Shown here piece by piece: positions 13,237 to 36,319 of a stretch of DNA of 64,000 nucleotides (position 1 is the first letter of the stretch; each line of letters opens with the position of its first letter). The position numbers and the translations under genes were made by a program. This stretch comes from Plasmopara viticola. Its lineage: Eukaryota; Oomycota; Peronosporomycetes; Peronosporales; Peronosporaceae. The DNA is taken from NCBI GenBank assembly GCA_001695595.3, contig MBPM02000003.1:2294001-2358000 (forward strand), in the 5' to 3' direction. The notes beneath the pieces are model-generated. The model made no database searches. It was given only the letters and a program-made list of their open reading frames with translations, and was not told the DNA's origin.

Positions 13237-13308
13237 AGCGCGAGACCGGGATTGAACCAGTGACCATTCGAGCTGCAATCGAACGCTCTACCACTGAGCT
13301 ACCCGCGC
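13237..13308 (-). tRNA. tRNA-Cys(GCA), copy 47, next to retroelement 1
   Basis: The 72-nt gene is unchanged, but its trailer is diverged (an AACCTATAAGCGAG-type spacer). Its normal 5' flank has been replaced by retroelement 1, which begins at 13309. The tRNA (minus) and the element (plus) therefore point away from each other with no bases between them. Confidence 0.93.
13293..13308. repeat. left target-site copy of retroelement 1
   Basis: ACTGAGCTACCCGCGC equals tRNA-Cys nt 16 back to nt 1. It recurs after the element at 22072-22087. Confidence 0.85.
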
Positions 13309-13406
13309 ACTTCTCAATTTGCCGGCAACCCCACAAGTCGACTCTTCAGAAGGACCCAACCCTCACCCTCTTTCCCAGCCATCTTTTTGCTCTCTAACCA
13401 GTACAG

Positions 13407-16104
13407 ATGGAAAATCAAGCCGCAGGAAGTCTTGCAACCCCCCTTCCCTACGCCTCCTCGCCATCTGCTGTCCAGTCGCCACGCGACGCAGCCGGATCTT
13501 CGCCTGTCTCTGCATCAAGAATCCAGTCGGCACCCAGCAATTTGAGTACCTCGGGAAGTCCATCTCCCTCGGACTCTCCAACTGGCTCTGATTCCTCTGA
13601 TGACGCCTCGCCAGCCACCCATCCAGCTGCGCCACCGTCGCCTCTCGTACCTTTGTCGCCCCCCTCGTCCGCGCCCTCCGAGCCGCCTGCACCCGCGCTT
13701 AAAGACTCGGAAGACGAGCCGATGGATGCCCCTCCGATTTCTGTTACAAACGTCGCTGCTGCTGCCGTGTCTGCTGTTGTTCTTTCACCCGCCAACGCCG
13801 TCGACTCCAGCACGACTATGATCGCAGATCACGATGACGAGCCGATGGAGTTACCTTTAACTGTTAAAGCGTTGACTACACCTATCGACAAGCGTCCAAC
13901 GATGGCCGCACTGCTGCGAGAGCAGGAGACCATCCGTCGCGACAAAGCCAAAGTCGAAGCGAATAGAAGCCGCATCGAGACGCCAAAACCGCTCGCGTGT
14001 GACATCGAGTCGATCGAGCGCCAGTACATTCATCGCCTCGCAGATGGACCACGCGCGGCCGTACGCATTGCCTCGCGCGCGTTACGACATGGTCATTGAC
14101 ACGGGTCGCACTTTCGCGAAGACTCCGCTACAGAAGATCATGGCGTCGCTGGCTGGTTCGCACCACGGTAACGACGCGCTTGAGAACCTTTACAGCGAGC
14201 ATGCGATCGGCCAAGTGTCAAAGCTCCCTGGCGGTAATTTTACGCGTAAAGATCAAGACAAAGGAAGCATGCCTCAAGCTTGAGCCCACAAAAGTGAACA
14301 TCTTGGGCGGTGTCTTCTTGTTCAAGGAGTTCGACGTCCTCGCAGGCAAGTACTTCCTCGAAATTTCCAACGTCGATTCGGACACTAACACGGACGCGAT
14401 CCTGCATCGGCTCTTCATCCTTGGGTGCAAGCCGATCTATGACACGTTCCGCGAGGTAAATATGGCTACCGGCATCACTTCGGCGACGTGGCGAGTGTAC
14501 TTCCTCTCGAACACGTGTCCGCTTCAGCTGATGGTGAACGGCTCGGTATGTGACCAGATCCTGTTCGACAACAAGCTGCACCCAGCTCACGGCAAGAGCG
14601 CACCGTTTCAGTTCGAGCGTCTACCGTATGGTTATCGCTCGCTTCACGGCATCGACCTGCCCACATGCGACTAAGTCTTCCCGCGTCCAGACCCTCCGGC
14701 CGAGTCGCCGTCGTCGTCGTCACAGGCGTCGAAGCAACCCAAGAAGCATCAACAAGCTATGCCAACGATCCCTACGCAAGCGGCGGCGAACGGCAAGCGA
14801 ATGACCTCGCTGCAGAAGGTAGTTGAGGAGTCCAAGAATCGCAATGGGAAGCTCCAAAGCGGAGCTCCGCATGGCTCGCCTCCTGGCATCAACCAGCTAG
14901 CGAAGATCCCAAGCACCCAAGACGGCGCTCTGTCGATCTCAACGTTCGAAGGATCCAACGGAAAAATTTCTTCCCCCGGCAGTCCTAACGGCAAGACGAA
15001 AGCTCCGATCTTACTCTTGATGAATGGCAGCAACGCGGACGTATTCTCGACGGTCCAGAATAAAAAGCGGCGTAGACGCAGTGACATCGACTTCACTGCT
15101 TTGCTCACGAAGCAGCAACCGCAGCCCCTCGATGGCGTCGCCACTGCAAACTACTTCGAAGCACTACAGTCTATGGAAGTCGATTTCGTGGTCAAAAACG
15201 CCACCGCGAACAAGAAGCACGGTGTGCGCAAGCAGGTCGTGCCGACCAATGTGAAGCGTCCCGAGGCGCTGACGACCGCAGCGGAGTCGGCATTCTTCGT
15301 TGAGAAGCACCACACAAGGATCAAGAAGGCAGCTAAGGCGTCGCCGATACTTGAGGTGACCGAGTCGATGATCAACGATGAGAATACAGCACTGCTCAAC
15401 ATTCTCCCGGACGGTCTCACAGAAGCAGACGCAAAGGTTCCCAGTATGGTGAAGCTCATCGAGAACGCGACAAACCCCGACCACATCGTGAAGTCGGCCG
15501 CTGCTTGTCCGCTCGCGTTCAACAGCGCGCTATCGCTCGCGATGGATGGTGACGGCAACTCGATCGAGGAGCTCGACCAGCTTCACGCGATTAACCGCGT
15601 GTTGTGCGCGACGTATCCTGACGAAAACACAACATTTGTGACGAAGTGGAAGCGCGTCATGGGAATGTCGATGTTGCCGAAGCGTCAAGACATCTTCAAG
15701 GAGTGTGCCAAGTGGTGGACCCACACAGACGCGATCACAGAGCTGTCGCGCGCGTCCAAGGCGCTCGGCATGTTTGAGCTCGCACTCATGTCGATCGCAC
15801 CGACGCTGTTTAAGAACGACCATTGGGTCCAGTACGTTACGGTCCAGCCGGTTGAGTGGATCCCGGCGCACCACATGCGTTTCCTGCACCCAAACACGCT
15901 GCTGCGACTGCTGCGGTTAGACCTTGGCTCACACTGCTGCAGCAGTGGCGTGAGGTACAGTGGCAGGGTCACTTGCTCGACGACCTAGAGGCGCTGCGAA
16001 AGCTCGACGGTTACTACCCGGTCGACTCGTCGGTGCTGAAGGTCTGCGTGGATGCTGACGGCCACGCAATGACGGTAGCGCGAGGCTTGTCCACCCGTTG
16101 CTAA
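13407..16104 (+). pseudogene. retroelement 1 ORF1 (nucleic-acid-binding-type protein), broken
   Basis: The start ATG at 13407 lies 98 bp into the element and is matched by the same M-E-N start in element 2. The first ~150 residues are rich in Ser, Pro and Ala. A block with IETPKPLACDIESIERQY follows. Next comes a conserved core with NILGGVF, EISNVDSDT, TSATWRVYF and NGSVCDQILFDNKLHPAHGK, which looks like an RNA-binding alpha/beta fold (inference). A basic KKRRRRSDIDF stretch then leads into a long C-terminal domain ending in VQWQGHLLDDLEALRKL. Breaks relative to element 2 are frameshifts near 14030, 14245 and 15925 and a TAA at 14672-14674. The probable job is binding element RNA in an RNP. 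The domain family is not identified with certainty. Confidence 0.75.
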
Positions 16105-16147
16105 AGTTGCCTCGGCTGCACAGCACGACTGGAATGCCGTCTCTCTG

Positions 16148-19100
16148 ATGACCGTGAACACCAACGGCATCAAGAAAAACGGACACCTTTTCATTGACAA
16201 CCTCCTCTCAAAGCATTCGGTGTCGTGCGTCCAAGAAACCAAGTTTGGCGACGCACAACACCTCTCAACCTTCAATTTCCACCTCGAGTCGGGCTTCACG
16301 CACAAAATCTTCGTAAATGACCCAAACGCGTTGCTGGATCGACCCACGCGCGGTCGATGCAATGGAGTCCTGACGCTGTTACGCTCCGATTTCCCCGGCT
16401 TCGACACGGCTGCTGGGATATCGCGCCTTTCAGTGTCAGGGAGGTACCTCGTCGTGAAAGTGACGGTCGAGCCTGCTCCCGTCTACATTCACAACGTGTA
16501 CGCGCCAGTTGATCGCCAAGAGAAGCAACAATTCTTCATGAGTTTGTCGACCGATGAATTTGAGGATGACGCGACGCACTTAGTGCTCGGGGACCTGAAC
16601 ACACCGCTTGATCCGCGACTAGACTGCTCTACGCCCGATCTGCGCTACGACTCAAGTCGTTCCAGCTGTCTGAAGTGGCTTGCAAAGCTTGGGGTCGTCG
16701 ACGCCTGGCGGATCCACAATGACACTAAGCGCGTATTCACCGGTCCGCTTCCACGGAAGAACCGGCTGGACTACATCTTGATGTCGGAACGGTTCTGTGA
16801 CCGCTTCTACGACAAGTCCAAGTACTTCTTGCCCAAGCATGCCGGCGACCACCTTGCGCACAGCGTCTCGCTCCGCTCCAGCACGCAGCTTCACGGTCGC
16901 GGATACTGGAAGTTCCCACGATACCTGCTAGACTTCCCACAGGTCGTTTTGGCGATCCAGAAGGAAGCAGAGATAATACGTGATCAACTGCGCAGCGTGG
17001 GGAACCCGGGTAAGATCTGGGACCAGTGGAAGGCGAGCATCAAGAAGCAGCTACAAGACATGCAGAAGAAGCTCAGACAGCAGGACTCACAAGCCATCGA
17101 GGACTCCCGTGTCGCGCTGGACCAAGCTGCCGCGCGATTCCGCGTGTCGTCGAGTGACATTGAGCGCGAGCTCTTCGACGAAGCGATGAGCAACTACAAG
17201 GAGACGGTGATGCGGACGAGTCAGTACAATCAAGACACTGCGTTCGACTTCCAGGCCGCCAACTCCGAGAGGTCCACGAAGCACTTCTTCCGTCCGCTGG
17301 AGACGAGCTTGCGACGAGTCTCGATCGAGGAAGTTGTGACACCAAGTGGAAGTGTCTCGACGAATCCGCACGAGATATCGCTCCGCTTCCTGGAGCACTA
17401 AGGGTTTGAAATGGGAGATCTTGACAGCCCTGGAGGACGAGATCATCTACCCAATGACGCCATGCAGCGCAAGCTTCTCGACTCAGTCTCGTGCTTTGTC
17501 GCGGACTCTGACCGCGAGATGCTCGACGCTGAGTTGACAGCAGCAGACCTCGCAGGTGCGATCAAGCATATGAAGGCGACGTTATCGCCGGGAATGGATG
17601 GCTTGACCGCTGGTTTCTACCAGGTGGCGCCCGACGTGTTTGGCGAGTGCTTGGCGATTGTGTTCTCAGACCGACTCCGACGCGGTGAGCTCCTGGCGTC
17701 TCAGCGCAAGTCGGCCGTCGTGATACTCCACAAAAAGGGCTCACGCGCCGAGCCTAGCAATTACCGGCCGATTGCGCTCATACCAGTCGATGTGAAGGTG
17801 CTTTCGAAAGCGCTTACGTTTCGGCTACAGGGCGTAATCCTTGATTTGATCCATCCGGACCAGAAGGGATTTGTCAAAGGCCGCTCGATCCATCACCACG
17901 TGCGCTTCCTATCCGACCTACAAGATCTCGTCACAAACCGTGACGAAGAGGCATACGCGCTATTCTTGGACTTTCAGAAGGCCTTCGACCGCGTCAACTG
18001 GGACTACATGTTCCGGCTGCTTAAGCGCATGGGCTTTGGACAGAGCTTCATCAAGTGAATCCGGCTGTTGTACACGAACCCCCAAGCGCACTTGCTGATC
18101 AACGGCAACGTCCAGCCAGCATTACATCCGACACGCGGCGTGAAGCAAGGCGATCCGCTCTCGGCGCTACTCTTCGTGCTCACGATCGAGCCGCTCGGGA
18201 ATATGCTACGCGCGCACGAGGAACACGGCCTGTGCCTAAACGCAGACCACACGGTGACAAGTGTATTTTTCGCGGACGACTCGACGCTTCTCGCCAGCTC
18301 AATCTTGAACCTCCAGGAGCAACTTGCGTCCGTGGACGAGTATTGCCAAGGCTCTGGTGCAAAATTCAACTTGTCCAAGTCTGTGCTGCTGGCGCTGAAG
18401 TATGCCCTGCGATGCCTGGCGTCCATGTTCTCGCGCGCACGGACACGGTCAAATACTTGGGCATTCCATTCGGACAAGCGCCTCTAGACAACATGATCAT
18501 CGAGTTTCTTGATCAGCGCTTTTACGACGGCTTTAAGGCTTGGTACCGACGCGCGCGCACGCTTCGTGGTCGATTTCTAGTAGCACAGACGATGGTGCTC
18601 TCGCGCCTTTGGCACTACACACAGCATGTAGCAATTCCACAGACAGTTGTGCGACGCTGGCAGTCGATGCTCAACCGCTTCGTCTTATGCCGCAAGCACG
18701 ACCGCGATGCAAAGCATGTACAGCTCATCCCGAGTGAGTTCTTGCACCAGCGGCGCAGTGACGGTGGATTGGGAATTTCAAGACTCGACGCGCAACTTAG
18801 GTGTCAGCGTCTCGCACTACTGCTGCAGTTCATGCACGCGGCGAGTGCGACCCATGTGAGGAACTGGGCAACTGTGAGCGTTGAGTTACTGACATCCGTG
18901 ATGCCTTGCTACGGCAGATGCACCGCGCTGGATTTCCTTATAATCTCTCCGCTTCGACACGGCAAGCTCATCGGATGGAGTCAAGTGTCAATATGGTGGA
19001 GAGCAACGCGGACGTGGTGGTACAAGTCGCGCTGGGAGATTACGTGGCGCGGCCTGCCTCGGAACGATCGCGCAATGTATGGTCTAAATCAGCCGATCTG

Positions 19101-20223
19101 GTTCCATGCAGACGCAGAGCTGCACTATGAGAAGGCCATGCGGACAGCAACAACAGAAGCACATCGACGATGTCTAGGCATGGTTCCCGCGCCACAGCGC
19201 AGCTTTCGTCTGCATGTCTCGCGTGTGTTTAATCTGCGGTCGCTTGCCGACTTCCGACTCGAGAATGAGGCGTGGCCGACCTGTGTAGACTTCGTCCAAC
19301 GCCACATCGACTTCACATTTGTACCGGTTCTGCCGGGTGTACAAGCAAAGTGGCTACGTGCACTGTATGGCGAGGCAACGCAGATTGTGGATCGACTTGG
19401 TGCACTGCAGCTGGTGCGAAACTCGTCAAACACCAGCTCCCAGCGTCTACTCCCGCACTTGGGATGTACGAGTGGCACGAGGAAGTGCTTGATCCCGGCA
19501 ATCCCGAGATCGGCGCTTCTGGAAGTCATCCGGACACCCAAGCTGCCGAGCAAGCCACATCCAATGACCATTTTCTCTTAGCGTGTCAACGAACACCGAA
19601 TCAAAGCATTCGTCAAACACGGCAGGAGACTGAGTAAGATCTTGCTGTCGGTCTTCGACGACTTGCAGTTTCGACTCGCGTTTCGGCTGCTTCCCGTGCG
19701 CTCACGCTTATGGTTCCTGGAACCATCACGTCCGGGCATCCGCATCTGTGTGCGCGATAGCTGCGAAGCAATCGAGACGGAACAACACCTGATCTTCGAC
19801 TGCATGCCCGCATCGCAGTTGTGGCGGCAGGTCTTGATACTCGTCTCGCCTTTCTTCGTCTCTCGCTCCGGCTGGCTTGACATCGCTCTCGGGAACAAGC
19901 TGCGCGTCCACGAAGACTGGGACGAGTGCGCTGACGTGGTGCACGACGTGTGGCACGTTCTCCGAGCTGCGACGCTACACACGATTTGGACGGATCGCAA
20001 CAGGTGTCTGTTCGACGGAAGACAGCCGACACCAGTAGCTCCGGCGCTCGCGGTGATCTTCTCGACGTTCTGTGCGCACGTTCGGTTCTTCCAACGGCGG
20101 TTGTACGATCGGGAAGAGAGTCGCGGGCTACAACGAGTGATCGAAGCGATGAAGACTCATTCGGCATTCGGTGACTTTGCAGACCGGCAACCGAACATCA
20201 CCAGTGTTAAGTCAAGTTTATGA
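16148..20223 (+). pseudogene. retroelement 1 ORF2: AP endonuclease + reverse transcriptase + CCHC, broken
   Basis: ATG at 16148 lies 43 bp after the ORF1 stop. Endonuclease motifs by residue are NTNG (4-7), QETK (29-32), NVYAPVD (116-122), GDLNTPLD (148-155), RLDYIL (206-211) and GDHLAHS (233-239). The RT has SPGMDGLTAGFY (about 17588), NYRPIALIPVD, IHPDQKGFVKGRS, FLDFQKAFDRVNW, RGVKQGDPLSALLF (about 18137) and the catalytic FADD at 18269-18280. A C-x4-C-x7-H-x4-C knuckle lies at about 19747-19803. Such enzymes nick the target and copy element RNA there. This copy has stops at 17399-17401 and 18056-18058 (both at Trp sites by comparison with element 2 and the RT family), a frameshift near 18400 and a stop at 19579-19581. 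No RNase H domain was seen. Confidence 0.88.
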
Positions 20224-20353
20224 CCGATGTCCTCCGATCGAGAATATTGAGTCTACCTTATGCTGTTTGAGAGTTATTAATTTCCGCCACAGACCGCCAC
20301 ATGTCCAAGCGTCTCATTTCCGAATTTTTCCGCACCTGCACAAGCGAACCAAG

Positions 20354-21691
20354 ATGTCCCCTCAGCACCTCCACGCCTTCGGCCCCGTCGACTTTACCCA
20401 AGCCGCCTTAACCGGCTCGAAGCCTGACTTGCACCCGAAAGGGGGACGGGGGGCATGAGCCCAGAGGAAAGCCAGGCAGAGAACTCGGACAAGAGCGGTG
20501 AGGGTAGGGTTGAGAAACCGATCGATGAGGAGGGGCTGGTCGACGACACCATGGATGGGCCGTCCGACGTGCCACCAGCCTCACAGTGCGGCGAAGAAGA
20601 TGGCGAAGGAGACGACGATGGTGCAAGCAATAACAACAGCAACAGCGACGACGGCAACAGCGACGACGGTATCGACGACAGGCCTGTCATCCTGACTCCA
20701 GCATCCTCGTTTTCCCCGACTCCTGCTCTCGACCTTGCTGCGACAACAACTGTGTGCGGCTACACGCTCCGCAAGCGCACAGCCGACCAACTCGAAGCTA
20801 TGCGCCCAGTCAAGCGCACTCGGCGATCCAAGCCCAGCATTGAGGTCGGCGAGATTGACTGCATCGACAACCGACGAGAGGTGTCCAGCGGCTTCGAGTA
20901 TCGAGTGACTTGGAGCGACGGCGCCGACCCGATCTGGCTGCCACGAGACCAGCTGATCGAAGACGGCAATACCAACCTGGTCGAGATGCTCGACTCGTAT
21001 CTCGAGCGGTATCCCAACCGGAAGGTGATGTTCCAAGCATTCATCAGCCGCAACGCTCGAGCATTCGCAGCTGTCGCTGACAATGAAGACAAATCCTGCG
21101 TGCCACATGCCTTTCAGATGGCGCTAGCTGCTTGGCTACCAAGAACAGAGCGCTTTTCTCCCGGCAATCTGGTCGGAGTACCTGACAGACGCGCTTGCTG
21201 CGAAGGTCCAGCTACAACAAGGCTTCCACAAAACAAGCGAGATCCTGCGCTACTGCGCCAAGGGCGTCACCAAGTGCGGGATTAAGCTCGACCTCAAGAC
21301 ACTCCGGGTCAACCTCTTTGACGGCGATGGTGCGGGCCCCATGGCTTTCGCGACTCGAGTCCTCCCAAACGAGCAAGGCGTGCGAGTGCTGAAGCCGGGA
21401 GTATACATCGTCGGTGCATTCAAGCGGAGCATGCGTGCTCATTGCTTCGCGATGGGAGTGACAGACGACGAAGACATCATCGTGCGCGAAGACGGCATTG
21501 ACTCCGGCATCGGCGACCAGACATGGCTGCGCATGATCAAGTTCATCTGCAGGGTGAAGGTGACGAAAAAAAAAAAGAAAACTCTGACGAGTGATCCGAC
21601 CTCTGTACACCTGGAGCCGTTTTGTCTTTGCCTCTTAAGGTACAGTGTACCCGGGAGACTGGACAGAAGGGACTCCGCCAATGGGACTTAG
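20354..21691 (+). pseudogene. retroelement 1 ORF3: chromodomain + putative papain-like protease, sense strand, broken
   Basis: The conserved start MSPQH lies at 20354. A frame change near 20455 joins it to a 276-codon frame beginning MSPEESQAEN. Counting from 20455, residues 50-75 are an acidic Asp/Gly/Asn tract. Residues 103-125 are basic (RKR, KRTRRSK). Residues 132-184 fit a chromodomain (GFEYRVTWSDG, IWLPRDQL, LVEMLDSYLERY). EDKSCVPHAF follows, with a candidate nucleophile Cys at 215. After a second frameshift (~21130) the sequence GVYIVGAFKR then RAHCFAM (His codon near 21440) resembles the His half of a Cys protease. A chromodomain would suggest binding to modified histones. The protease call rests on Cys and His placement only. 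There is an A11 run inside the frame at about 21565. Confidence 0.6.
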
Positions 21692-21799
21692 TGTACGCGC
21701 GGAGGATCTTTCTCACCCTCTCCAAGTTTGTTCGGCTAGGGTTGTGAAACCCATATCGGCCATTCTACGTTATGGAGTGAGCGATCCGGAATCAAATGC

Positions 21800-21872
21800 T
21801 GTACGTTGTGGGGTTTGAACCCACGACCTCCCGCTTGGAAAGCGAGTGCTCTACCGTTTGAGCCAGCTGATC
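21800..21872 (-). pseudogene. tRNA-Gly(UCC)-like sequence in element 1 tail
   Basis: On the minus strand the D stem is GCUC/GAGC. The anticodon stem CUCGC/GCGGG surrounds loop UUUCCAA (anticodon UCC). The T stem is GUGGG/CCCAC with loop UUCAAAC. Box A- and box B-like sequences are present. The acceptor halves GAUCAGC and AACGUAC do not pair, so it is a tRNA pseudogene or the head of a tRNA-derived SINE. Confidence 0.6.
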
Positions 21873-22071
21873 TTAAATTTTTGGCATAACAACCTCCACC
21901 AAGAAACATCGACAACAAAACATCTGTTCAGGTAAGATTCAAGGAGCGTCGCGTACATAAAAGGTACAACTCGCAAAATGTGTAAATTAGTATTTATATC
22001 AGTAAGATTAGTCAGTTACCGGTAGATTGAGAAGCAACTCAGTATATTTTAACGTAATAGACAAACTCTTA

Positions 22072-22087
22072 ACTGAGCAACCCGCGC
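22072..22087. repeat. right target-site copy of retroelement 1
   Basis: ACTGAGCAACCCGCGC differs by one base from the left copy at 13293-13308 (T to A at 22079). It is followed by the normal array flank GTTCAAATATGC. Confidence 0.85.
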
Positions 22088-22374: not shown

Positions 22375-22578
22375 GTTTAAATATGCTTGACGCTTTGGGC
22401 GGACTCAAACAAGTTTGGTTGCGCTACAAATAAAGCTACCGCGAACTGTAGAATTGTCGGTTTCTGAAAAGTCGAGAGTGTATCTAGCTTCTCTTTTAAA
22501 GTGTAGGCAGCATACACTACCAGCAAAAACCTCACACGATATGATGATTTACATGTGCAATGTCACATGACGGCTCTG

Positions 22579-22650
22579 AGCGCGAGACCGGTATTGAACC
22601 AGTGACCATTCGAGCTGCAATCGAACGCTCTACCACTGAGCTACCCTCGC
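22579..22650 (-). tRNA. tRNA-Cys(GCA)-like copy next to retroelement 2
   Basis: There are two changes: acceptor nt 4 C to A (5' end reads GCGAGGG) and nt 60 in the T loop. nt 4 no longer pairs with G69. Its 5' end is directly joined to retroelement 2. It is probably weakened or a pseudogene. Confidence 0.6.
22635..22650. repeat. left target-site copy of retroelement 2
   Basis: ACTGAGCTACCCTCGC is one base different from the right copy at 31969-31984. Confidence 0.8.
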
Positions 22651-22756
22651 ACTTCTTAATTTGCCGGCTATTCCACAAGTCGGCTCTTCACAAGAACCTA
22701 TTACCATAAAGCTTTCTAGCTTCCCATCTCAGCCGCCTCTTTTTCCGCCCATCGTG

Positions 22757-25354: not shown

Positions 25355-25391
25355 GGCGGATTCGGCTCGACCAACCTGGACAAACGTTGGT

Positions 25392-28300
25392 GTTCTCACT
25401 GTAAACACCAACGGCGTGAAGAAGAACGGCCACCTGTTGATCGAGCATCTGCTCTCCAGGTACTCGGTATCTTGTCTCCAAGAAACCAAGTTCGCCGACC
25501 GCGACCACCTTGACACCTTCCGCTTCCATCTCGAGTCGGCTTTTGCGCACAAGCTGTTCGTGAGCGACGATAACGCGCTGCTCAATCGACCGACCCGAGA
25601 CGCTGCTGCGCTCTGATTTTCCTGGCTTCGAATCAGCTGCCGAGGGTCCCCACCTCACTGTCTCCGGCCGATACCTTGTTGTGCGTGTAATGGTCAATGT
25701 TACTCCCATCTACATAAACAATGTGTACGCGCCAGTCGACAAGCAAGAGAAGCAGGCGTTCTTCTCGAACCAGGCGACAGAAGGTTTCGAAGACGCCGCG
25801 ATCCACTTCGTTCTTGGCGACTTGAACACACCGCTTGACCCGAGTCTTGACTGCTCCATGCCGGACCTCCGTTATGACCCTAGTCGCTCGAGCTGCCTTG
25901 ACTGGTTGGCGCGACTTGGCGTTGCTGACGCCTGGCGTATTTACAACAAGTCGAAGCGCGGCGCGTCTATACTGGCCCGATGCCTCGCAAGAACCAACTT
26001 GAATACGTGCTGCTGTCTGAGTCGTTCAGCAACCAATTTTTTCACGACGCTAAGTACTTTGACCCAAAACACGCCGGTGATCACCTGGCGCACAGTGTAA
26101 GGTTCAAGTCCGGATCCCAGCTACTGGAAGTTTCCACGATACCTTCATGACTATCCTCAAGTCGTTTCGGCTCTTCAGCGTGAAGCCAACGACAGCTCCG
26201 ATCGTGGAAGGCGAGCGTCAAGGCGCAACTTCAGGACCTCCAGAAAAGATCCGCGCACAAGATGCTCAAAACTGAACGGCCACGCGGTCAAGCGTAATGT
26301 GGAGGCCCGCATTACGCTTGACCGCGTGGCCGTTTAGTACCGGACGGAGTCGGACGAAGATAACCGCGACGTGTACGAAGCGGCAATGCGCGAGTACAAA
26401 GAGACGGTGACAAGGTCGAACCAGTATAGCCAGGACGAAGCCTTCGACTTCCAAGCTACGAACTCCGAGGAGTTGACGAAGTTCTTCTTTCGTCCTCTCG
26501 ACACAAGCCTCCGGCGTGTCTCCATCGAGAAAGTCGTCACGCCAAGTGGACGCATCTCGGCTAACTTGAACGAGATCTGCCTCCGGCTCCTCGAATACTG
26601 GGGTTCCGAGAGGGGACGAATACAGTCCTGGCGGCAAGGCAATTCCACCGGACGACGCGTTTCAAAGCAAACTGCTGGACTCTGGCGTTTGCAAACTGCC
26701 TGAGCTCGACCGCGACACTCTGGACAGGAACGGCAGCGCGTCAGACCTCGAGCTGGCGATCAAGCACATGAAGGCGACTTTGTCTCCGGGGATGGACGGC
26801 TTGACAGCTGGTTTTTACCAGGTTGCGCCGGTGGTCTTCGGCGAATGTATCGTGCTGGTGTTTAAGAACCGCCTTGAGCGCGGGAAACTGCTGGCGTCGC
26901 AATGCAAGTCAGCTGTGGTACTGTTACACAAGAAAGGCTTTTGTGCCGACCCAGGAAACTTCCGCCCAATTGCGCTGATTCCGGTAGACGTCAAGGTGCT
27001 GTCCAAGGCGCTCACGTTCCGTCTCCAGGTTGTCATCGACAAACTGATCCACCCCGACAAGAAGGGGTTCGTTCGCGGCCGCTCGGTCCACCACCACGTT
27101 CGCTATCGTACAGATCTTCAGGACCTCGTGACGAGCCTGACGAGGAGGCGTACGCGCTGTTCCTGGATTTCCAGAAGGCGTTCGACCGCGTGAACTGGGA
27201 ATACAAGTTCAAGCTGCTCAAGCGAATGGTTATCGGAGACGGCTTCATCCGCTGGGTGAAGCTGCTGTACACCGACCCGCTCGCGAATCTTCTCATCAAC
27301 GGCGAAGTTTAACCGGCACTTCAGCCGACGCGTGGAGTGAAGCAAGGCGATCCACTCTCCGCACTGCTTTTCATCTTGACGATTGAGCCGCTGGGTAACC
27401 TGCTCCGATCGCACGAAGAGTACGGCGTGTGTCTAAATGAAGACCACACGGCGACGAGCGTCTTCTTCGCGGACGACTCGACACTCCTCGGTAGCTCAAT
27501 TGCGAACCTTCAGGCACAGGTCGAATTCATCGAAGCGTACTGTCAAGGCTTAGGCGCGAAGATGAATCTGACAAAGTCGGTGCTGCTAGCCCTGAATTGC
27601 GGCCACGAGTGTCCGTCGATGCCGGACATTCAGATCCTCGACCGGCCGGAGTCGGTCAATTACCTTGGTATCCCGTTTTGTCAGTCGCTTGTGGACGACC
27701 GCATCCTTGAGTCCCTTGACCAGCGCTTTTACGGCGGCTTTAAGTCGTCGTATCGGCGTGCACAGACATTGCGAGGTAGACTCCTCGTGGCGCAGACAAT
27801 GATGCTCTCGCGCTTGTGGCACTACACACAGCATGTGTCAGTCCCGACAGCTGTCGTTCGTCGATGGCAGTCGATGCTGAACCGGTTCGTGCTGAGTTGC
27901 AAGCACGATCGTCACGCGTCGCACATCCAACTGATCCCAAGCGAGTTCTTGTACCAGCGGCGCGGAAACAGGGGTTTAAGAGTCCCGCACCTGAGAGCTC
28001 AGCTCAAGCGGCAACGACTTCAGCTGCTCCTCCAGTTTGTGCCTTCAGCTCGGTCGATGGCGTCTCAAAACTAGACAACACCAAGCGTGGAGCTGCTGCG
28101 CTCCATTCTCCCTCGATACGGCGGTAGCCACGCACTCGACTTCCTGATGATATCACCACGGCGACACACGTCGGCGTGGTGGAAGTCAACACTGATGTGG
28201 TGGCATTGCACACGTTAAAAGATCTCGTGGCGCGACCTCTTGCCGAACGAACGCACTGTTGCCGGTCTTCGTCAACCGATCTGATTCAACTGCGACCCTA

Positions 28301-29400
28301 AACTCCAGTACGAGCAGCGAACACGGTCGGGCACGGCGACGGCACACCGACGGTGCCTCGGCATGGTGCCTGAGCCGCAACGCAGCTTCTGACTGCATGT
28401 CTCGCGGGTCTTCGCGCTCCGCTCGCTAGCTGACTTCGCATGAGAAGGGCTTCCGTGGCCGACTCATTGCGAATTCGCCGAACGACACGTCGATTTCACC
28501 CTCGCAAGCGTTCATCCCGGGCAACAACAAAAGTGATTGCGTGCACTCCACAGCGAAGCGAGTCAAATCGTTGATCGACTCGGCGCTCGAGGTGTCGATC
28601 GCGATCCGTCTTGGAGGGACACTCGATTGCTTGTCCTTGGCGTCACGAGCAACGCGAAAGATTATTTCTTCCCGGACATCACGTGTACAAAGGTGCTTCA
28701 GGTCGTCTGGACGTCAGCGCTTCCACGTAAGCCGCACCCGATGACGATACACTTTGAGAGGGCTGACGACAAGACGATCAAGTCGCATGTACAGCTGTCG
28801 AAGCGTCTGCGGCGTATTTTGCTGCCGATCTTTGACGACCTCTAATGGCAGCTCGCATTCCGGCTCCTGCCCGTTTGATCGCACTTCTGGTTCCTCCAGA
28901 CCACGAACCCGAACATCCGCAAGTGTATCCTCGACGGCTGCAGCGCAATTGAGTCGGAGCAACACTTGTTTTTCGGCTGCACGCTGGCTTCGCAGCTTTG
29001 GAGGAACGTGCAACAAGTGATGTCACCGCTCCTTGTGAGACGCGCGACGTGGATTGACATTGCGCTAGCACGGAAGATTTGCATCCGGGATGAGTGGCAA
29101 CACAGGGAGGACGTCGTCTCTGACGTCTGGCATGTTCTCCGAGGTGTGACGCTGCACACGATCTGGACGGATCGCAACAGGTGCTTGTTCGACGGAAGAC
29201 AGCCGACACCAGCAGCTCCGGCGTTCGCGGTGATCTTCTCGACGTTCTGCGCGCACGTTCGGTTCTTCCAACGGCTGTTGTACGATCGAGAAGAAAAACG
29301 CGAGTTACAGCGAGTGATCGAAGCGATGAAGACTAACTCAGCATTCGATGACTTTGCAAACCGGCAATCGGATATCACCAGTGTTCGGGCGAGTTTGTAG
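25392..29400 (+). pseudogene. retroelement 2 ORF2: AP endonuclease + reverse transcriptase + CCHC, broken
   Basis: Endonuclease motifs NTNGVKKNGH, LQETKF, NVYAPVD and GDLNTPLDP are readable between 25400 and 25860. The RLDYI motif is spoiled by a frameshift near 25970. The RT has SPGMDGLTAGFY (about 26790), FRPIALIPVD, IHPDKKGFVRGRS, a duplicated-frame junction near 27140, KQGDPLSALLF and FADD at 27466-27477. A C-x4-C-x7-H-x4-C knuckle lies near 28925-28980. No ATG sits where element 1 starts ORF2, so the start is unclear. From 27310 to 28878 one frame carries nine stops but no indel. An inverted duplication interrupts the linker at 26271-26338. Confidence 0.85.
26271..26338. repeat. 29-bp inverted duplication forming a perfect-looking hairpin
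   Basis: Left arm 26271-26299 and right arm 26310-26338 are reverse complements with one mismatch, separated by a 10-nt loop. Comparison with element 1 indicates that the right arm is the original coding sequence (TLDRVA) and the left arm is an added inverted copy. Confidence 0.9.
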
Positions 29401-29530
29401 CCGACGTCAATCGATAGAGAATTTTGAGTTGACATTATGCTGCTCGAGAGTTTCGAATCTACGCCAACGACCGTCTGTTTCCAAACATCTCATTCCCAAA
29501 TTCTTACAGCTCCTGCACAACCAACCCAAG

Positions 29531-29842
29531 ATGTCTCCACAGCACCATCACGCCTCCGGCCCCGTTGACTTGACCCACGCTGCCTTTCCCGGTTTGATAC
29601 CTGGCTTCCCTTTACAGACTGTATTGTCTCCGGCTGCACCTGATAGGGAGACAATATGTATGAGCCGAGAGGAAAGCCGGGTGGAAAATTTGGACAAGAG
29701 TGATTGGATTGAGGTAGAGAAGCCGATGGATGATGAGGGGCTGGTCGACTCGAGACCGCGTTATTTCATGGATCCAGCAAGAACTCCCACAAGCCCGGTC
29801 CGCATAACCTTGTATTCTCTAATGCGGAAGGCCATTTCATGA
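29531..29842 (+). CDS. retroelement 2 ORF3 N-terminal remnant (sense)
   Basis: The 103-codon frame begins MSPQHHHASGPVDLTHAAFPG, which matches the ORF3 start of element 1. It continues with ESRVENLDKSD and KPMDDEGLVDS. The match to element 1 then ends abruptly and the frame runs out in sequence not related to the chromodomain. It is cut off from the chromodomain/protease part, which lies antisense just downstream. It could be a short real protein or only the left side of an inversion junction. Confidence 0.5.
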   Translation: MSPQHHHASGPVDLTHAAFPGLIPGFPLQTVLSPAAPDRETICMSREESRVENLDKSDWIEVEKPMDDEGLVDSRPRYFMDPARTPTSPVRITLYSLMRKAIS

Positions 29843-29890
29843 AACGACAAGTTCTTCTTCTTCACCTCAAAGCTTTATTATCGGTCATTA

Positions 29891-31111
29891 TCACGGGTAC
29901 TGGACCTGACTGCTCCTTCCTACACCCAAGCCAAGCCGAATTTCTTACTTGGTCAGGAGGCGAACTCGGTTGACACTGTAGATGTCGATGAAGAAACTGA
30001 TCGCATCGCAAAGTGCAACCCATTCTCCGGCGTCGAAGACTTGAAAACTTCCGCCTATATCCCACAACGCGGCACAATGTCGCACCAGTCCAGATACCGA
30101 GGCATCCAAGACATAGACCCCATCGTCCAAGTACGCAGTCAACATCCACATCCTCGCTCGAATGCGATTGACGGCTTTTCCCGGTCCGTATACCTGGTTT
30201 CTTTTCAGCTCTACCCAATCAAGCTTGTGCCTGCCAGCGTTGACAGCCAACTCCCTCAAGAACACTCGCAGCTTTACAGCTCCAAGCCCACTTCCTGGTT
30301 CCAACTGGTGCTTCTTCCTAAAGGCATTCCACCTCCATTCCGTTACGCACGCCGACGACCCGAGGACTAGCAACTCATAGACCTCGCGGATCGCGATCAA
30401 CGTGCACTGCTGATCGGAACCGACCTCCATAAACTTGTCTCCATTTTTGGTCCCTCGGAATCAGCGCGCGAACGGCATCCTTTTCTTCGTCACCTTGATC
30501 CAGGTGTCTACAGACTGTACCATCTCCTCAAGACCACCCTCCACCAAGTGCCTGCGCCTGTTCCAGTGACGGGTGCCGTCGGTGTACTCAGTCTCGTATT
30601 CGAGCACACCGTCCCTAGTCCGGCGATTATAAATGGTGGCTACCACGTAGCGCTCCTCGGTCGCCGACAGCCCCCCTTCCGAGTCCTCAGACGGGTGGGC
30701 GTCACGCGATATTGGCACTGATTTCAACGTTACCTTATACGTCAGCTTGCTTCGCCGAAGCTTACTCTTCGCCTTCTTGGTTCTCGGACTAGGCGGGCCA
30801 GTAGGACACGAGTTTGACTTCACCGCTCCATTTCGATGGCGGGGCACCACCTTCTTCTTTATCAAAGTCAAAATCGCCCCACCAGCCACCACCTCGCCCA
30901 CAGCATCTAAGCCACCTTTTTTTAACCTTACCAATGCTGCCGCCTCTCTGTCCATCGCGTCCAACGATACCTGGTCGCTGTCCATTTCATACGACGATTC
31001 TCCCTCGCTATCCATATCCTCAGCCTCGTCTTTAGCTAGGAGACGCTTGTTATGCTTCAGGATTGCCCTTTCCATCGGCTTTCCTCGTCGATTCTTCAGC
31101 TGGCCTCGCAT
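29891..31111 (-). pseudogene. retroelement 2 antisense ORF3: chromodomain + putative protease
   Basis: The minus-strand frame starts MRGQLKNRRGKP and is 407 codons long. It has acidic and basic low-complexity stretches and a KKVVPRHRNGAVK basic patch. A chromodomain-like block follows (YVVATIYNRRTRDGVLEYE, GTRHWNRRRHLV, LEEMVQSVDTWIK). Then come QQCTLIAIREVYELL (candidate nucleophile Cys), GVYVLDASVSGLVRHCAALW (candidate His) and FQVFDAGEW (candidate Asp). Stops are a TGA at 30461-30463 (Trp in element 3) and a TAA at 29945-29947 (Tyr in element 3). The layout equals the sense ORF3 of element 1, so the module has flipped. It converges with the sense ORF3 start. Confidence 0.6.
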
Positions 31112-31149
31112 TGACGGGATGGGGACATCAACAGCCGCTTCGCTCGAGG

Positions 31150-31543
31150 GCTAAGGAACACCCTCCCGTAATGAGGGCGGAGCCGGGGCAGCTACAACGG
31201 AATCAGACCGCACACACTCCGCACCCTCCAACGGTAGGGACCCTTCTCACGCGCACTGTTACACCCCAGCCGATTCTGCACAAGCTTTAGGATTACTCAC
31301 ACCTTGGAGGGTCGGTGCCGTGACCGCTTTAACGGAATCGGATCGAACACACTCCGAACACTCCGCCGATAGGGTTCCGTCTTCGAACACAGAACCGGCG
31401 ATGTTGCCAACGGACCCGTCGCGAGGTCCCGAGCTTTCCTCATTGCGGAGGGATGGAGCCGGGACAGCTTCAACGGAATCAGATCGCACAGACTCCGTTC
31501 CCTCCAACAGGTTGGGGCTCTCCTCAAGCGCGGTCGTTGTCAT
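31150..31543 (-). repeat. three ~130-bp imperfect repeats upstream of antisense ORF3
   Basis: On the minus strand three copies encode a VRSDSVxAxPAPS-like phrase (near 31195, 31330 and 31470). Element 3 has only one copy (near 35910). This is the 5' side of the antisense ORF3. Confidence 0.6.
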
Positions 31544-31968
31544 CCTAAAAACAAGAAAAAAAGAGCGTCAGATCAGCAAACCAAGTCGGGACCCCAAAAT
31601 GTTTATTTTTTTGGTACATCTGGGGTTCTTAGCAAATTCGAAAATGAGAGCTATTCTGACCACCCACAACTTCAGAATACCTTCCGACAAAACTCAAGAC
31701 CTGTCAAAATTTATACCCTGGATCTTTTGAAGACCTTCCAAACATGATACCAAGATCGAATCAGAACCTCAACAAGCGCATATCTCGAGTGGGCCACACA
31801 TATTTTTTTGTGGTCCACATCATATTGGGTGCCGCATATAATCCTGAACCCACCGGTGCTGTTCAAATACTCGTTAGACTACATTTTTGTATTTATAGTA
31901 TATATTTATAGCTAGGTACAATTGAGAAGTCACACCGTCTAAATTATTTATAATATAGACAAACTTAT

Positions 31969-31984
31969 ACTGAGCTACCCGCGC
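31969..31984. repeat. tRNA-Cys nt 1-16 shared by elements 2 and 3
   Basis: ACTGAGCTACCCGCGC is both the right target copy of element 2 and the left target copy of element 3. No further tRNA sequence remains between them. Confidence 0.85.
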
Positions 31985-32063
31985 TCTTCCCAATTTGCCT
32001 CGTCGAGCACAAGTCGATCCAGTCAAATACAAAAGTACCCCAACCCTCTTTCCATCCTTCCAA

Positions 32064-34276
32064 ATGAACCAGATCGACCCTCTCCTTCTTCCGACCTGCG
32101 GGATGGGCGATGATGGTGCAAACCCATCTGCTCCCACGCCCGGTTTAGTCTTCTTCCCGACGGAGATGGGTCGAACCCATGGTGACTCTTCAGCCGCTAA
32201 TTGAATGCTGCGACACTTGTTGCAAACGAGTGTGTGGTGACAGATGTCCCCAATCATGGGTTATCCGCAACCACTTGTTCGACAGATGCGGCACCATCCA
32301 TCGAATATGGTGGCGTTACTGGCCTGATCAAGTCTAATGACCAGCCATCCTCTGGTGACGGAGACGCTTCTCGAGCCGTTGACGTGGGCAGTGGTATGAC
32401 AGTGCTTTTTAGAAGTACTGACGTGCTCCTGCTGTCGGTAGATCCAGCAACAACGACGCCTCGATTGATACGACTATGACTGGCAAACACCTGATGAATG
32501 CGACAGCGGTGCCAAATTTGAGGCTCCGCGAGCTACTAGCCCACGACGACGAGATTCGCCGTGACATCGCGTCGCCACGGTACCGGAACTCGGGTGCCCT
32601 GATAACGCCTCGTCCGTCTGCGCTCGATATTGACACCATCGACGCGCTCTACGAGAAGGGAATAGACTGGAGTCAGCTGTGGTCGCCAATCGAGCGCGCC
32701 CGGCCGTACAAGCTACCTAAAACGCGGTCGTCAAAACCGGCCAAGCGTTTCAGCGTACTGGCACCAACAAGATTGCGACGTCGTTTCTCAAAGACAATGA
32801 CAACCCGGTGGTTCAAGCGCAAGTCAACGACTGCCAGATCGGCCAGATCTCAGGCCGGCGAGCTTTGTGTGCGTGTAAAAAGACCGAAAGGCGTGTGCGG
32901 AGCTTACTCGACAGCCCGTCCGTATTCTCGGCCACACGTTTACGTTCTCGGATTTCGACATCCTTGCGGACAGGTACTACCTCGACATCTCGGCTGTCGA
33001 TAGCATCTTCTTGCACGCCTCCCTCATGAAACAATTTTTCCGGATGGGCGCGGAGCCACTTTACGGCACCTTCCGCGACGTTAGTATTCATTCGGGCCTC
33101 ACAACGGCAAAATGGCGTGTTTATTTTTGCTCGTCAACGCCACCAAAGGCCGTCGTCATCGACGGCAAAGTTTGTGATCAGATCATATTTAACTGCTTAC
33201 AGTATCCAGCCCAGGGTCGTAACGCTGTTTTTCCGTCCCAACGTCTTGGATTTGGTCAGAAGTCGCCGTTCGCGCTCAACCTCGACCACATTGGTGGAGT
33301 CACATCGTCCGCTTCGCCGGCAGTACCGTCTGGTCCGTCGTATGCCGACGTCGTTAAGGGATTGGGTACTGTGGCAAGTGACTTTGGGCCGAAGAAAGAA
33401 GACGTGGTGAGTGTGCTCTCACTTGACACCAATACCGGCTCCTCAGTCACTCCTCCTGGTAGTCCAAAGCATGCGCTACGCTTTCTGCCTCCGATACCAC
33501 TGCCTGCACCGGCACCAGCGCTATGTTTGGCAAGCACTGAGGCCGTGGTGAGTAGGGAGAACAAGGCGCCACGTCGCCGTGCTGAGACGACCTTCGGCTC
33601 TATGTTTAAGAGCACTCAGCCAGTACCAGCCCAGAAGCTTGCCACCAGCAACTACTACGACGTGCTCAACTCAATAGGAGTCGAGTTTGACTTCTCGCCA
33701 GCTATGCTCTCGGAGTGTGGCCCCGCTCGCTACCAGATCGTCCTTTGTAAGGTAGAGGTCCCGGAAGCGATTGAGAAAAGCTCGGGGTCGTCGCATTTCT
33801 TTGTAAAGAAGCACACAAAAGTGTCCACATCGCCAAAGCCGATGATGATCCAGGAAGTCGTCGATGAGATGAAGGACGTCAAATAGACGGCAGATATCCA
33901 GATACAACCGAATCACTTGGCTGTAGCGGACGCTCGCATTGAGGGTGTGAGGAAGACGCTTAAAAATACGTACAACTCAGACACGCTGACACATCTTGCG
34001 AGTGTGGGCAAGCCGTTCGGTTTCAACGCTGCCTTGCTTGCTGATATGAAGAAGCTCAAAGATCATGTTAATGGGGTAGCACAACTGCATTCGCTGAAGC
34101 GAGTGCTGAGTGCATTGTATCCAACTCCCTCGACAACTTTTGCGTCAAATTGGACGAAAAGATTTGGCTGTAAGATACCGAGGACGCGTGAAGAAATCTT
34201 TAAGCAGACAGCGAGTTTGTGGAAGGACCCAGTGCATGAGTCGAACATTCGCGCAACACGAGCTTTATCTTTATGA
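32064..34276 (+). pseudogene. retroelement 3 ORF1, divergent and truncated
   Basis: ATG at 32064 (MNQIDPLLL). The frame breaks near 32204, 32476, 32730 and 33000, with a stop at 33884-33886. Family landmarks are RPSALDIDTIDALYEKGIDWSQ, ERARPYKLP, YLDISAVDS, GLTTAKWRVYF, GKVCDQIIF, SNYYDVLNSIGVEFDF and an AQLHSLKRVLSALYP-type C-terminal block. By eye the core is only about 40% identical to ORF1 of elements 1 and 2, so this is a separate subfamily. The frame ends in IRATRALSL, where the others continue for ~100 more residues. The deletion point is near 34270. Confidence 0.7.
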
Positions 34277-34545
34277 CCCACGCCGCCTTTCCGGGTTCGA
34301 CACCTGGCTTCCCTTTGCAGACTGTATTGTCTCCGGCTGCACCCGATAGGGAGACAATGGGCATGAGCCCAAAGGAAAGCCGGGTGGAGAGCTTGGACAA
34401 GAGTGATGGGAATGAGGTAGAAGAGCCGATGGATGACGAGGGGCTGGTCGACTCGAGTCCGCGTTGTTTCATTAATCCAGCAAGAACTCCCGCACACTCA
34501 GTCCACTTAACCCTGTATTCTATTATGCGGAAGACCGTTTCATGA
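34273..34545 (+). CDS. retroelement 3 ORF3 N-terminal remnant (sense)
   Basis: A 90-codon frame matches element 2 from THAAFPG onward (PAAPDRET, SRVESLDKSD, EPMDDEGLVDSSP). Its true start codon was lost in the deletion that joined it to ORF1, so any product would need a new start. Low coding value. Confidence 0.4.
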   Translation: MTHAAFPGSTPGFPLQTVLSPAAPDRETMGMSPKESRVESLDKSDGNEVEEPMDDEGLVDSSPRCFINPARTPAHSVHLTLYSIMRKTVS

Positions 34546-34593
34546 AACGACAAGTTCTTCTATTTCACCTCAAAGCTTTATTATCGGACATAA

Positions 34594-35820
34594 TCACGGA
34601 TACTGGACCTGACTGCTCCTTCCTACACCCAAGCCCAGCCGAACTTCGTATTTGGTCAGGAGGCAAACTCGGTTGACACTGTAGATGTCGATGAAGAAAC
34701 TGATCGCATCGTAAAGTGCAACCCATTCTCCGGCGTCGAAGACTTGAAAACTTCCGCCTATATCCCACAACGCGGCACAATGTCGCACCAGTCCAGATAC
34801 CGAGGCATCCAAGACATAGGCCCCATCCTCCAAATCCGCAGTCAACATCCACGTCCTCGATCGAATGCGATTGACGGCTTTTCCCGGTCCGTATACCTGG
34901 TCTCTTTTCAGCTCCACCCAATCGAGCTTGTGCCTACCAGCGTTGACAGCCAACTCCCTCAAGAACACTCGCAGCTTTACAGCTCCAAGCCCACTTCCTG
35001 GTTCCAACTGGTGCTTCTTCCTAAAGGCATTCCACCTCCATTCCGTTACGCACGCCGACGACCCGAGGACTAGCACCTCATAGACCTCGCGGATCTCGAT
35101 CAACGTGCACTACTGATCGGAACCGGCCTCCATAAACTTGTCCCCATTTTTGGTCCCTCGGAACCAGCGCGCGAACGGCATCTTCTTCTTCGTCACCTTG
35201 ATCTAGGTGTCCAAAGACTGTATCATTTCCTCAAGACCACCCTTCACCAAGTGCCTGCGTCTGTTCCAGTGACGGGTGCCGTCGGTGTACTCAGTCTCGT
35301 ATTCGAGTACACCGTCCCTAGTCTGGCGAATATGCATGGTGGCTACCACGTAGCGCTCCCCGGCCGCCGAAAGCTTCCCTTCCGAGTCCTCAGACAGGTG
35401 AGCGTCACGCGATATTGGCACTGTTTTTAACGTTGCCTTATACGTCAGCGCGCTTCGCCGGAGCTTATTCTTCGCCTTCTTGATTCTCGGACTTGGCGGG
35501 TCGGTAGGACACGAATTTATCTTCACCGCTCCATTCCGATGACGGGGCACCACCTTCTTCTTTATCAAAGTCAAAATCGCCCCACCAGCCACCACCTCGC
35601 CCACAGCATCTAAGCCACCTTTTTTGAACCTTACCAATGCCGCCGCATCTCTATCCATCGCAATTAACGACACCTGGACGCTGTCCATTTCATACGACGA
35701 CGCCTCCTCGCTATCCATATCCTCAGCCTCGTCTTCGTCGCTAGCGAGAAGACGCTTGTTATGCTTCAAGATTCCCCTTCAACGACGTTCCTCGCCGTTT
35801 CTTTAGCTGGCCTCGCATTG
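34594..35820 (-). pseudogene. retroelement 3 antisense ORF3: chromodomain + putative protease
   Basis: Close copy of the element 2 antisense ORF, and over 90% identical by eye across the protease-like half. The start region MRGQLKKRRG (ATG near 35818) is out of frame with the rest (frameshift near 35765). The chromodomain-like block is YVVATMHIRQ, GVLEYETEYTDG, HWNRRRHLV. A TAG at 35203-35205 replaces the Trp of element 2, and another TAG falls just before the candidate nucleophile Cys. The frame then stays open through VRHCAALW to a TGA at 34594. The different stops in the two copies imply that the frame was intact in their shared ancestor. Confidence 0.6.
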
Positions 35821-36303
35821 ACGGGATGGGGACATCAACAGCCGCTTCGCTCGAGGGCTTAAATACACCCTTCCGTGATGAGGATGGAGCCGGGGCAGCT
35901 TCAACGGAATCAGACCGCACACACTCCGCACCCCCCAAAAGTCGGGACCTTAAAACGTACCACCCTTTTGGTACTTCTGGTGTGCTTTGCAAATTCAAGA
36001 TTTGAAACTTCAAAATACCTTCCGACAACACTCAAGACCTGTCAAACTTTATGCGCTAAATGTCTTGAAGACCTTTCACACATCATACCAAGATCGAATC
36101 AGAACCTCGGCAAGCGCATATCCCGAAGGCACCACGTACAATTTTGTGGTCCACATCATATTGGGTGCCGCATATAATCCTGAACCCACCGGTGCTGTTC
36201 AGATACTCGTTAGACTGCATTATTGTATTTATAGTAGTTTTATAGCTAGGTTCAATTGAGACGTCACACCGTCTAATTCATCTATAATATAGACAAACTT
36301 TCA

Positions 36304-36319
36304 ACTGAGCTACCCGCGC
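36304..36319. repeat. right target-site copy of retroelement 3
   Basis: ACTGAGCTACCCGCGC is identical to 31969-31984 and is followed by the array-type flank GTTCAAATACGC. Confidence 0.85.

Follow-up and report, generated by a model that had tools for sequence, protein, structure and literature searches.

Several families of non-long terminal repeat (non-LTR) retrotransposons use transfer RNA (tRNA) genes as targets. They include a family from the oomycete Plasmopara viticola, three copies of which (e1, e2 and e3) lie in the window analysed here, a stretch of 64,000 nucleotides (nt) corresponding to positions 2294001-2358000 of contig C3. Among the known systems, compared here as far as the cited passages describe them, TRE5, TRE3 and NLTR-B, L1-type elements from dictyostelids, use tRNA genes as safe sites but insert outside of the gene over a range of positions (40-54 bp upstream, 40-150 bp downstream or 39-64 bp upstream; PMC5911963, PMC5006619). 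The P. viticola elements show no such spread at a distance: they insert at nt 1 of the tRNA, with a duplication located inside of the gene. An earlier reading of the window, made from the DNA letters only (the sequence-only reading), had likened them to the TRE group; this holds for the use of tRNA genes but not for the insertion site, which is outside of the gene in TRE elements (PMC5911963, PMC5006619). NLTR-A from Dictyostelium purpureum, listed as L1 in a table of PMC5911963, is the closest in placement, 2-6 bp upstream of the mature tRNA (PMC5006619). However, it lies outside of the gene over a small range and carries an RNase H downstream of its reverse transcriptase (RT); the terms 'target site duplication' and 'TSD' have zero occurrences in the main text of the NLTR-A paper.

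Other target-specific elements share some features with the P. viticola family. Dewa from zebrafish is a non-LTR element tied to tRNA-gene repeats but sits in the spacer of one repeat type, that of tRNA-Leu (PMC3706591). NeSL-1_TV, LIN15_SM and LIN25_SM are specific for tRNA genes (tRNA-Pro, tRNA-Arg and tRNA-Glu) but use one tRNA type each and are grouped with NeSL relatives, which have a restriction-like endonuclease (PMC4640811). Dada DNA transposons insert within tRNA genes, five lineages of them at nt 8-13 in box A, but rely on a DDE transposase, generate 6-7 bp duplications and form families named by their main tRNA (PMC8869645, PMC3706591), whereas the P. viticola family encodes an RT and an APE endonuclease and generates duplications of 15-20 nt. 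In oomycetes, Utopia is a target-specific non-LTR element that uses a small RNA gene and has an intact gene upstream of the insertion, as here, but it has a restriction-like endonuclease and targets U2 small nuclear RNA, in the downstream part from nt 39 (PMC4640811). Oomycete L1 elements with an archaeal-type RNase H share the group, the APE endonuclease and the hosts (PMC5348765); the word 'tRNA' occurs 0 times in the main text of that paper. Among the papers listed in searches of open PMC text, which covers neither subscription journals nor Repbase, no report of an oomycete APE long interspersed element (LINE) in tRNA genes was found. Within the passages cited, none of these systems joins an isotype-wide reach to a placement at nt 1.

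Oomycete genomes are known to contain tRNA genes in tandem arrays; one such array in Phytophthora infestans comprises 271 tRNA-Cys genes, with a unit of 513 nt (PMC9584435). The P. viticola window begins with such an array, and the tRNA-Cys genes 13237-13308 and 22578-22650 (both on the minus strand) have their nt 1 adjoining the starts of e1 and e2. The sequence ACTGAGCTACCCGCGC, the complement of tRNA-Cys nt 16 to 1, flanks e1, e2 and e3 (13293/22072, 22635/31969 and 31969/36304). Chance was ruled out for this 16-mer, which has 55 matches with up to 2 mismatches in the window for 0.04 expected. The data below make it very probable that these elements are L1-group non-LTR retrotransposons with an APE endonuclease and that their target is the tRNA gene as a class; the endonuclease would nick box A, and insertion with a fixed stagger would rebuild the tRNA whole.

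5' ends of the family across the genome

The P. viticola assembly (92,937,831 bases in 358 contigs) was searched for 5' ends. A first set was obtained with the 5' end of e1, searched without regard to flanks (40 of 62 candidates scored), and with that of e3 (12 matches); after the addition of e2 and of two divergent copies, C72 and C96, it comprises 55 junctions. Fifty-one of them lie at nt 1 of a tRNA or tRNA stub: 42 were called by ARAGORN, seven are stubs recognized by pattern and two were identified by eye (L026, a stub that follows another element, and L033, a decayed tRNA). The ARAGORN labels are Thr-AGT (8), Lys-TTT (7), Tyr (5), Cys (4), Met (3), Ser-AGA (3) and Phe-GAA (2), with one case each of Ala-CGC, Ala-AGC, Thr-CGT, Thr-TGT, Arg-ACG, Ile-AAT, Ile-TAT, Leu-CAA, Leu-TAG and Phe-AAA; on inspection by eye, the gene labelled Phe-AAA and two of those labelled Ser appear to be Thr genes that have decayed. 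Offsets from nt 1 as given by ARAGORN are -1 (20 cases), 0 (17), +1 (3), +2 (1) and +3 (1). When the 55 junctions are anchored on box A by a strict pattern, 41 of them lie at a distance of exactly 7 nt from T8, on its 5' side, and four at 8 nt; five of the remaining 10 (L010, L023, L024, L033 and L084) have a box A outside of the strict pattern.

The complement of the first 15 nt of the element has 74 exact occurrences in the genome, for a single one of the reversed 15-mer. Half of them (37/74) are followed by any 7 bases and T.G...A.T, i.e. by box A at tRNA spacing, and none by the reversed pattern. Thirty-nine of these places, absent from the first set, constitute a second set, in which 29 junctions lie at tRNA nt 1 (27 called by ARAGORN with offsets from -3 to +2; L115 and L132, decayed tRNAs by eye). 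Their labels are Leu-TAG (5), Leu-CAG (3), Met, Ser-GCT, Ser-AGA, Ser-CGA and Phe (2 each) and Thr-AGT, Thr-TGT, Tyr, Lys-CTT, Ile, Ala-AGC, Ala-CGC, Asn and Cys (1 each). At nine of the 10 non-tRNA sites, similarity to the element beyond the 15-mer is no better than that of shuffles, and these sites were excluded as copies, although two of them, L150/L114 and L148, could be decayed copies (score of 11 for shuffle maxima of 12 and 13). Some of the nine places (L105-L108, L110, L111, L114, L118, L121 and L144-L152) have common flanks, corresponding to other repeats. The tenth, L153/L122, is a true copy that is off target, with no tRNA in its flank. Altogether, 94 sites were examined, nine of which carry the 15-mer only; 80 of the 85 element 5' ends are within 3 nt of nt 1 of a tRNA or stub.

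The element is antisense to the tRNA in every called case, and several subfamilies are represented. The tRNAs encoded at these sites carry at least 12 different amino acids (Cys, Ala, Thr, Lys, Tyr, Met, Phe, Ser, Arg, Ile, Leu and Asn), which indicates that tRNA genes in general, and not tRNA-Cys alone, are the target. Gly, Val, Asp, Glu, Gln, His, Pro and Trp isotypes were not met among the targets, which may reflect either a preference or a lack of arrays. Uninterrupted sites also exist, in the tRNA-Cys array and elsewhere: tRNA-Lys nt 1-24 together with the 9 upstream bases seen after stubs was found at 156 places (up to 2 mismatches). A search of the genome with the Rfam tRNA model, in which 63 of 13680 first-look candidates were scored, gives no count of tRNA genes.

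The sequence-only reading had proposed tRNA-Cys as the target, a specificity that a single tRNA-Cys junction in nearly all copies would prove. The e1 and e2 junctions and the e3 stub do lie within a tRNA-Cys array, as would be the case if the elements were specific for tRNA-Cys genes and used other sites by accident. However, the flanks tabulated in the genome show other tRNA genes at the equivalent site, and tRNA-Cys accounts for only 5 of the 69 ARAGORN-called junctions (4/42 in the first set, 1/27 in the second). Such a specificity has a negligible probability and is refuted for the P. viticola genome. What stood of the proposal is the target specificity of these non-LTR elements: far from lying at unrelated sites, nearly all copies examined lie at the equivalent tRNA site.

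C72 and C96 provide a blind test, as they were chosen by their RT alone (about 64% identical), with their flanks unseen beforehand, in a search of the genome that gave 152 matches (150 of 551 candidates scored). Both lie inside tRNA-Leu arrays, the 5' end of C72 being at nt 1 of a tRNA-Leu and that of C96 1 nt off. Directly after the 3' end of C72 comes ACTCGGGCACACTGAC, which corresponds to nt 16-1 of tRNA-Leu, and next the sequence found upstream of neighbouring Leu genes; the duplication of C72 is thus an exact one of 16 nt. Box A at this site reads CCGAGT and not CTCAGT. Over their first 41-48 nt, e1 and e2, e3 and C72, and e3 and C96 are 85-88% alike, and no DNA match was found in these pairs over the hundreds of bases that follow. 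This terminus, the part still common to subfamilies whose adjacent 5' regions no longer align, is possibly a promoter or a new tRNA leader.

Unequal crossing-over and gene conversion within tRNA arrays could also have multiplied a few old insertions, so that few insertion events would have occurred. Near-identical flanks recur among the Thr-AGT, Lys, Tyr and Met copies, and L035/L041 and L029/L058 have mutually unmatched ends, as such a process would produce. Nevertheless, the 42 ARAGORN matches of the first set fall into 28 distinct contexts (by a rough criterion, the label and the 35-nt stretch beyond), 12 amino acids and several subfamilies are involved, and the sequence of the duplication varies with the tRNA. 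This origin is therefore very improbable, and array recombination as the only source was rejected on the 28 contexts.

3' ends and the target duplication

The 3' ends of 42 copies were examined, two of which run off the contig. Among the 40 that can be evaluated, 32 are followed by the complement of tRNA nt 1-16 (20 exactly, nine with 1 mismatch, one with 2 and two, L049 and L077, with one extra base). The tRNA gene thus stays whole, as had been claimed: the element extends from nt 1, and in most cases the complement of nt 16 to nt 1 comes directly after its 3' end. Both ends are available for 25 copies, 24 of which can be evaluated as L010/L075 runs off the contig. A further pair, L020/L004, was dropped as false because an intact tRNA gene follows. 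A duplication of 15-20 nt with at most 1 mismatch was found in 22 of the 24 pairs, including the tRNA-Ser T-arm copy, so that flanks without duplication are the exception. The family thus behaves as site-specific non-LTR elements do, with most copies at one structural site (80/85 5' ends) and a constant duplication (22/24).

In the window, the duplication is of 16 nt in e1 (1 mismatch), e2 (1 mismatch) and e3 (exact). The sequence-only reading was right in making the three elements start at the tRNA-Cys 5' end and end on the complement of nt 1-16, except that e3 begins on the 16-nt stub that follows e2 and not on a whole tRNA, e2 and e3 forming a stack. It had also stated that exactly nt 1-16 are duplicated and that the staggered cut lies at nt 16/17. 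The stagger does begin at the 5' end of the tRNA, cross box A and reach the D arm, and 16 nt are read in e1-e3, but the last 2-3 nt (ACT) may belong to the element, which leaves the inner cut anywhere at nt 14-16. More generally, the duplication reads 16 nt where tRNA base 17 differs from the last base of the element (Cys, Thr and Leu), and lengths of 17-20 nt come from extra matching bases. ACT, the last three bases of the duplication (tRNA A14-G15-T16), is ambiguous between target and element. In L010/L075 (an Ala gene) and L082/L042 (a copy in a tRNA-Ser T-arm, at a sequence resembling the usual target), the target is devoid of AC at this position, yet the 3' junction reads ACT. These data suggest that the element may bring 2-3 nt and that the inner cut may be at nt 14 rather than 16.

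The same junctions bear on whether pairing of the 3' end of the element RNA with the nicked box A strand chooses or fixes the site. The commonest 3' ends, TTTCAACTGAGC and TTTAAACTGAGC, found in 14/42 and 7/42 3' loci, complement the box A GCTCAGTT; the element seems to be the source of the AC found in L010/L075 and L082/L042; and L078 and L080 retain AACTGAG at sites without a tRNA stub. On the other hand, the tRNA-Leu end is TTGA joined to ACTCGGGC, in which only ACT fits, the 3' flank of the Ala copy (L010/L075) is only 12 nt long (contig end), and a search for further Ala stubs returned only the tRNA-Cys site of the window. A role of RNA pairing is thus a possibility, though a somewhat doubtful one.

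Protein domains and a model for insertion

The open reading frame (ORF) 2 of C72 encodes an APE endonuclease upstream of an RT (PF03372 and PF00078). Its best match in PDB is human L1 ORF2p (E 5e-60, residues 14-907), which spans both domains, whereas R2 is matched over the RT only (E 4e-25). By these similarities the family can be assigned to the L1 group of non-LTR retrotransposons with APE endonuclease, at the group level, i.e. without separating the L1 and Tx1 clades, the latter being that of Dewa. Pfam searches of this ORF2 (one copy) revealed no RNase H, unlike in the oomycete L1 elements mentioned above, and no match above the cut-off in its C-terminal 401 amino acids; in particular, no restriction-like endonuclease was found there by Pfam downstream of the RT, the APE domain being upstream instead. 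Mammalian L1 has a poly(A) 3' tail. Such a tail is absent here, no A-run being present in the common 3' ends (for example GACAAACTTTCA or GACAAACTTTAA). The named relatives among the closest 120 proteins include those from Globisporangium, Peronospora, Phytophthora, Aphanomyces and Achlya and from a genus whose name begins with 'Plasmo'. When viral contigs were scanned with ORF2, no relative was detected.

On this basis, the following insertion process can be proposed. The endonuclease would nick the tRNA-sense strand in box A (T8 R9 ... A14 R15 T16), between nt 13/14 and nt 16/17. The nicked sense-strand end would prime reverse transcription of the element RNA (target-primed reverse transcription), a step that the RT, the APE domain and the duplication point to. 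The other strand would be cut about 13-16 bp away, at the boundary between nt -1 and nt 1. As the tRNA gene is rebuilt, the same tRNA would be usable again, giving head-to-tail stacks, and long tandem tRNA arrays would supply sites.

According to established tRNA numbering, all tRNAs have box A at the same distance from nt 1, whereas nt 1-7 of the targets vary (GCGCGGG, GCCCCTA, ACCCGTC, CCGAGTG, GCTCCTT, GCCTCGA, GTCCCCG and GACAGCT). The outer cut is therefore unlikely to be read from sequence, and a fixed measure from box A fits; box A recognition with a fixed stagger would account for all isotypes seen. T8 and A14 are common to nearly all targets, and position 10 is mostly G, but C in Leu-CAA and Leu-CAG.

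Alternatively, the RNA polymerase III (Pol III) machinery, i.e. TFIIIC or TFIIIB on the gene, could set the position as for TRE5 or Ty3, rather than DNA recognition by the endonuclease. The use of many isotypes with differing nt 1-7 would be expected in this case, the off-site copy L082/L042 lies in a tRNA-Ser T-arm (box B region), and the ORF1 protein of TRE5 binds TFIIIB (PMC5911963). However, TRE5, TRE3 and NLTR-B are spread over many bases outside of the gene (PMC5911963), whereas the junction is near base-exact here, with the duplication inside of the gene; moreover, no tRNA gene is present in the flank seen at the off-site copy L122/L153 or at some of the 3' ends. Tethering by Pol III factors thus appears rather unlikely. 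If box A is recognized as proposed, one LINE lineage could be regarded as treating all tRNA genes as a single base-exact target, reading the shared gene design (box A and a fixed measure to the mature 5' end) and not the sequence of one gene; the 41-48 nt terminus would become the new upstream flank or leader of a gene that stays transcribed and reusable. This broader view can only be put forward tentatively, its probability falling a little short of even.

Several observations weigh against a target made up of tRNA genes as a class. The sets of 5' ends are lower bounds (40 of the 62 e1-end candidates having been scored), and many copies are duplicates within arrays, with fewer contexts than ARAGORN matches. 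Five of the 85 5' ends are away from tRNA nt 1: L122/L153 and four of the 55 of the first set, namely L028 and L029, which share the same flank and probably derive from one event, L035, in a tRNA-Cys without its 5' half, and L082, in the tRNA-Ser T-arm. Of the 40 3' ends, L060, L063, L078, L079 and L080 have no tRNA stub, L055 and L065 are weak, and L042 belongs to the T-arm copy. The duplication is absent from the pairs L029/L058 and L035/L041. Lastly, the nick position is uncertain by 2-3 nt (nt 14-16).

Features of the window and bearing on tRNA arrays

The coding parts of e1 and e2 are 67-73% alike across the stretches that can be aligned. In e3, matches were found to ORF1 and to the middle ORF but none to the EN-RT protein (ORF2), and its 3' part resembles that of e2. 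A Pfam search of the ORF1, middle, third and antisense ORFs supplied gave nothing above the cut-off; the antisense ORF (216 amino acids, 30461-31111, minus strand) lies in the 3' part of e2, in a region partly common to e3. The third ORF of e1 includes a chromodomain-like stretch, and such a domain is not known from other non-LTR elements. The tRNA-like body located near the 3' end of e1 has, by eye, the anticodon TCC and is present at 84-100% identity in all 12 e1-type 3' loci (L066-L077). The fourth copy reported by the sequence-only reading near 45646 is real, has the expected orientation and abuts a degenerate tRNA-Cys; the junction is only partly the same, as about 11 nt, including tRNA nt 1-7, are missing by eye. 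Before relic copy 5 (region 45920-47721), degenerate tRNA-Cys-like remains were seen by eye, as if the array had once extended further.

Table 1. Coordinates of the tRNA-Cys array, the elements and their relics in the 64-kb window.
Feature	Positions	Strand	Evidence or remark
Tandem tRNA-Cys(GCA) genes, n = 47	64..13308	-	Unit of about 287 bp; uninterrupted target sites
Upstream copy of e1 16-nt duplication (complement of tRNA-Cys nt 1-16)	13293..13308	+	Exact match to ACTGAGCTACCCGCGC
Element e1, 8.8 kb, decayed	13309..22071	+	Begins at tRNA-Cys nt 1
e1 ORF2 part, APE-type endonuclease domain	16148..17401	+	PF03372, E 5e-8
e1 ORF2 part, RT; copy broken by stops and frame change	17411..18058	+	PF00078, E 1e-17
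e1 ORF2 continuation, RT C-terminal part	18055..19581	+	Matches ORF2 of L102
e1 third ORF, chromodomain-like stretch at 20803-21048	20455..21285	+	Best PDB match cpSRP43, E 2e-6
tRNA-like body inside e1 near 3' end	21808..21865	-	Rfam tRNA model positions 8-63, 46 bits, without acceptor stem
Downstream copy of e1 duplication	22072..22087	+	1 mismatch to ACTGAGCTACCCGCGC
Upstream copy of e2 duplication, within tRNA-Cys gene 22578-22650	22635..22650	+	1 mismatch to ACTGAGCTACCCGCGC
Element e2, 9.3 kb, decayed	22651..31968	+	
tRNA stub, 16 nt, between e2 and e3; common to both duplications	31969..31984	+	Exact match to ACTGAGCTACCCGCGC
Element e3, 4.3 kb: ORF1 region and e2-like 3' part	31985..36303	+	
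Downstream copy of e3 duplication, then array spacer	36304..36319	+	Exact match to ACTGAGCTACCCGCGC
Relic copy 4: remains of ORF1 and ORF2 (ORF relics 41254-45198)	41254..45646	-	5' end adjoins degenerate tRNA-Cys at about 45647
Relic copy 5: endonuclease and middle-ORF remains	46521..47721	-	

As described in the passages cited, the published tRNA-associated LINEs either depend on a single tRNA type or have a broad reach but lie at a distance, outside of the gene; the P. viticola family is both broad and near base-exact. Leaving the tRNA gene whole is a way of inserting harmlessly. Should box A be read by the endonuclease alone, this enzyme would cut a motif common to most tRNA genes of a genome. 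The finding also bears on the evolution of the large tandem tRNA arrays of oomycetes, which these elements both use and divide.

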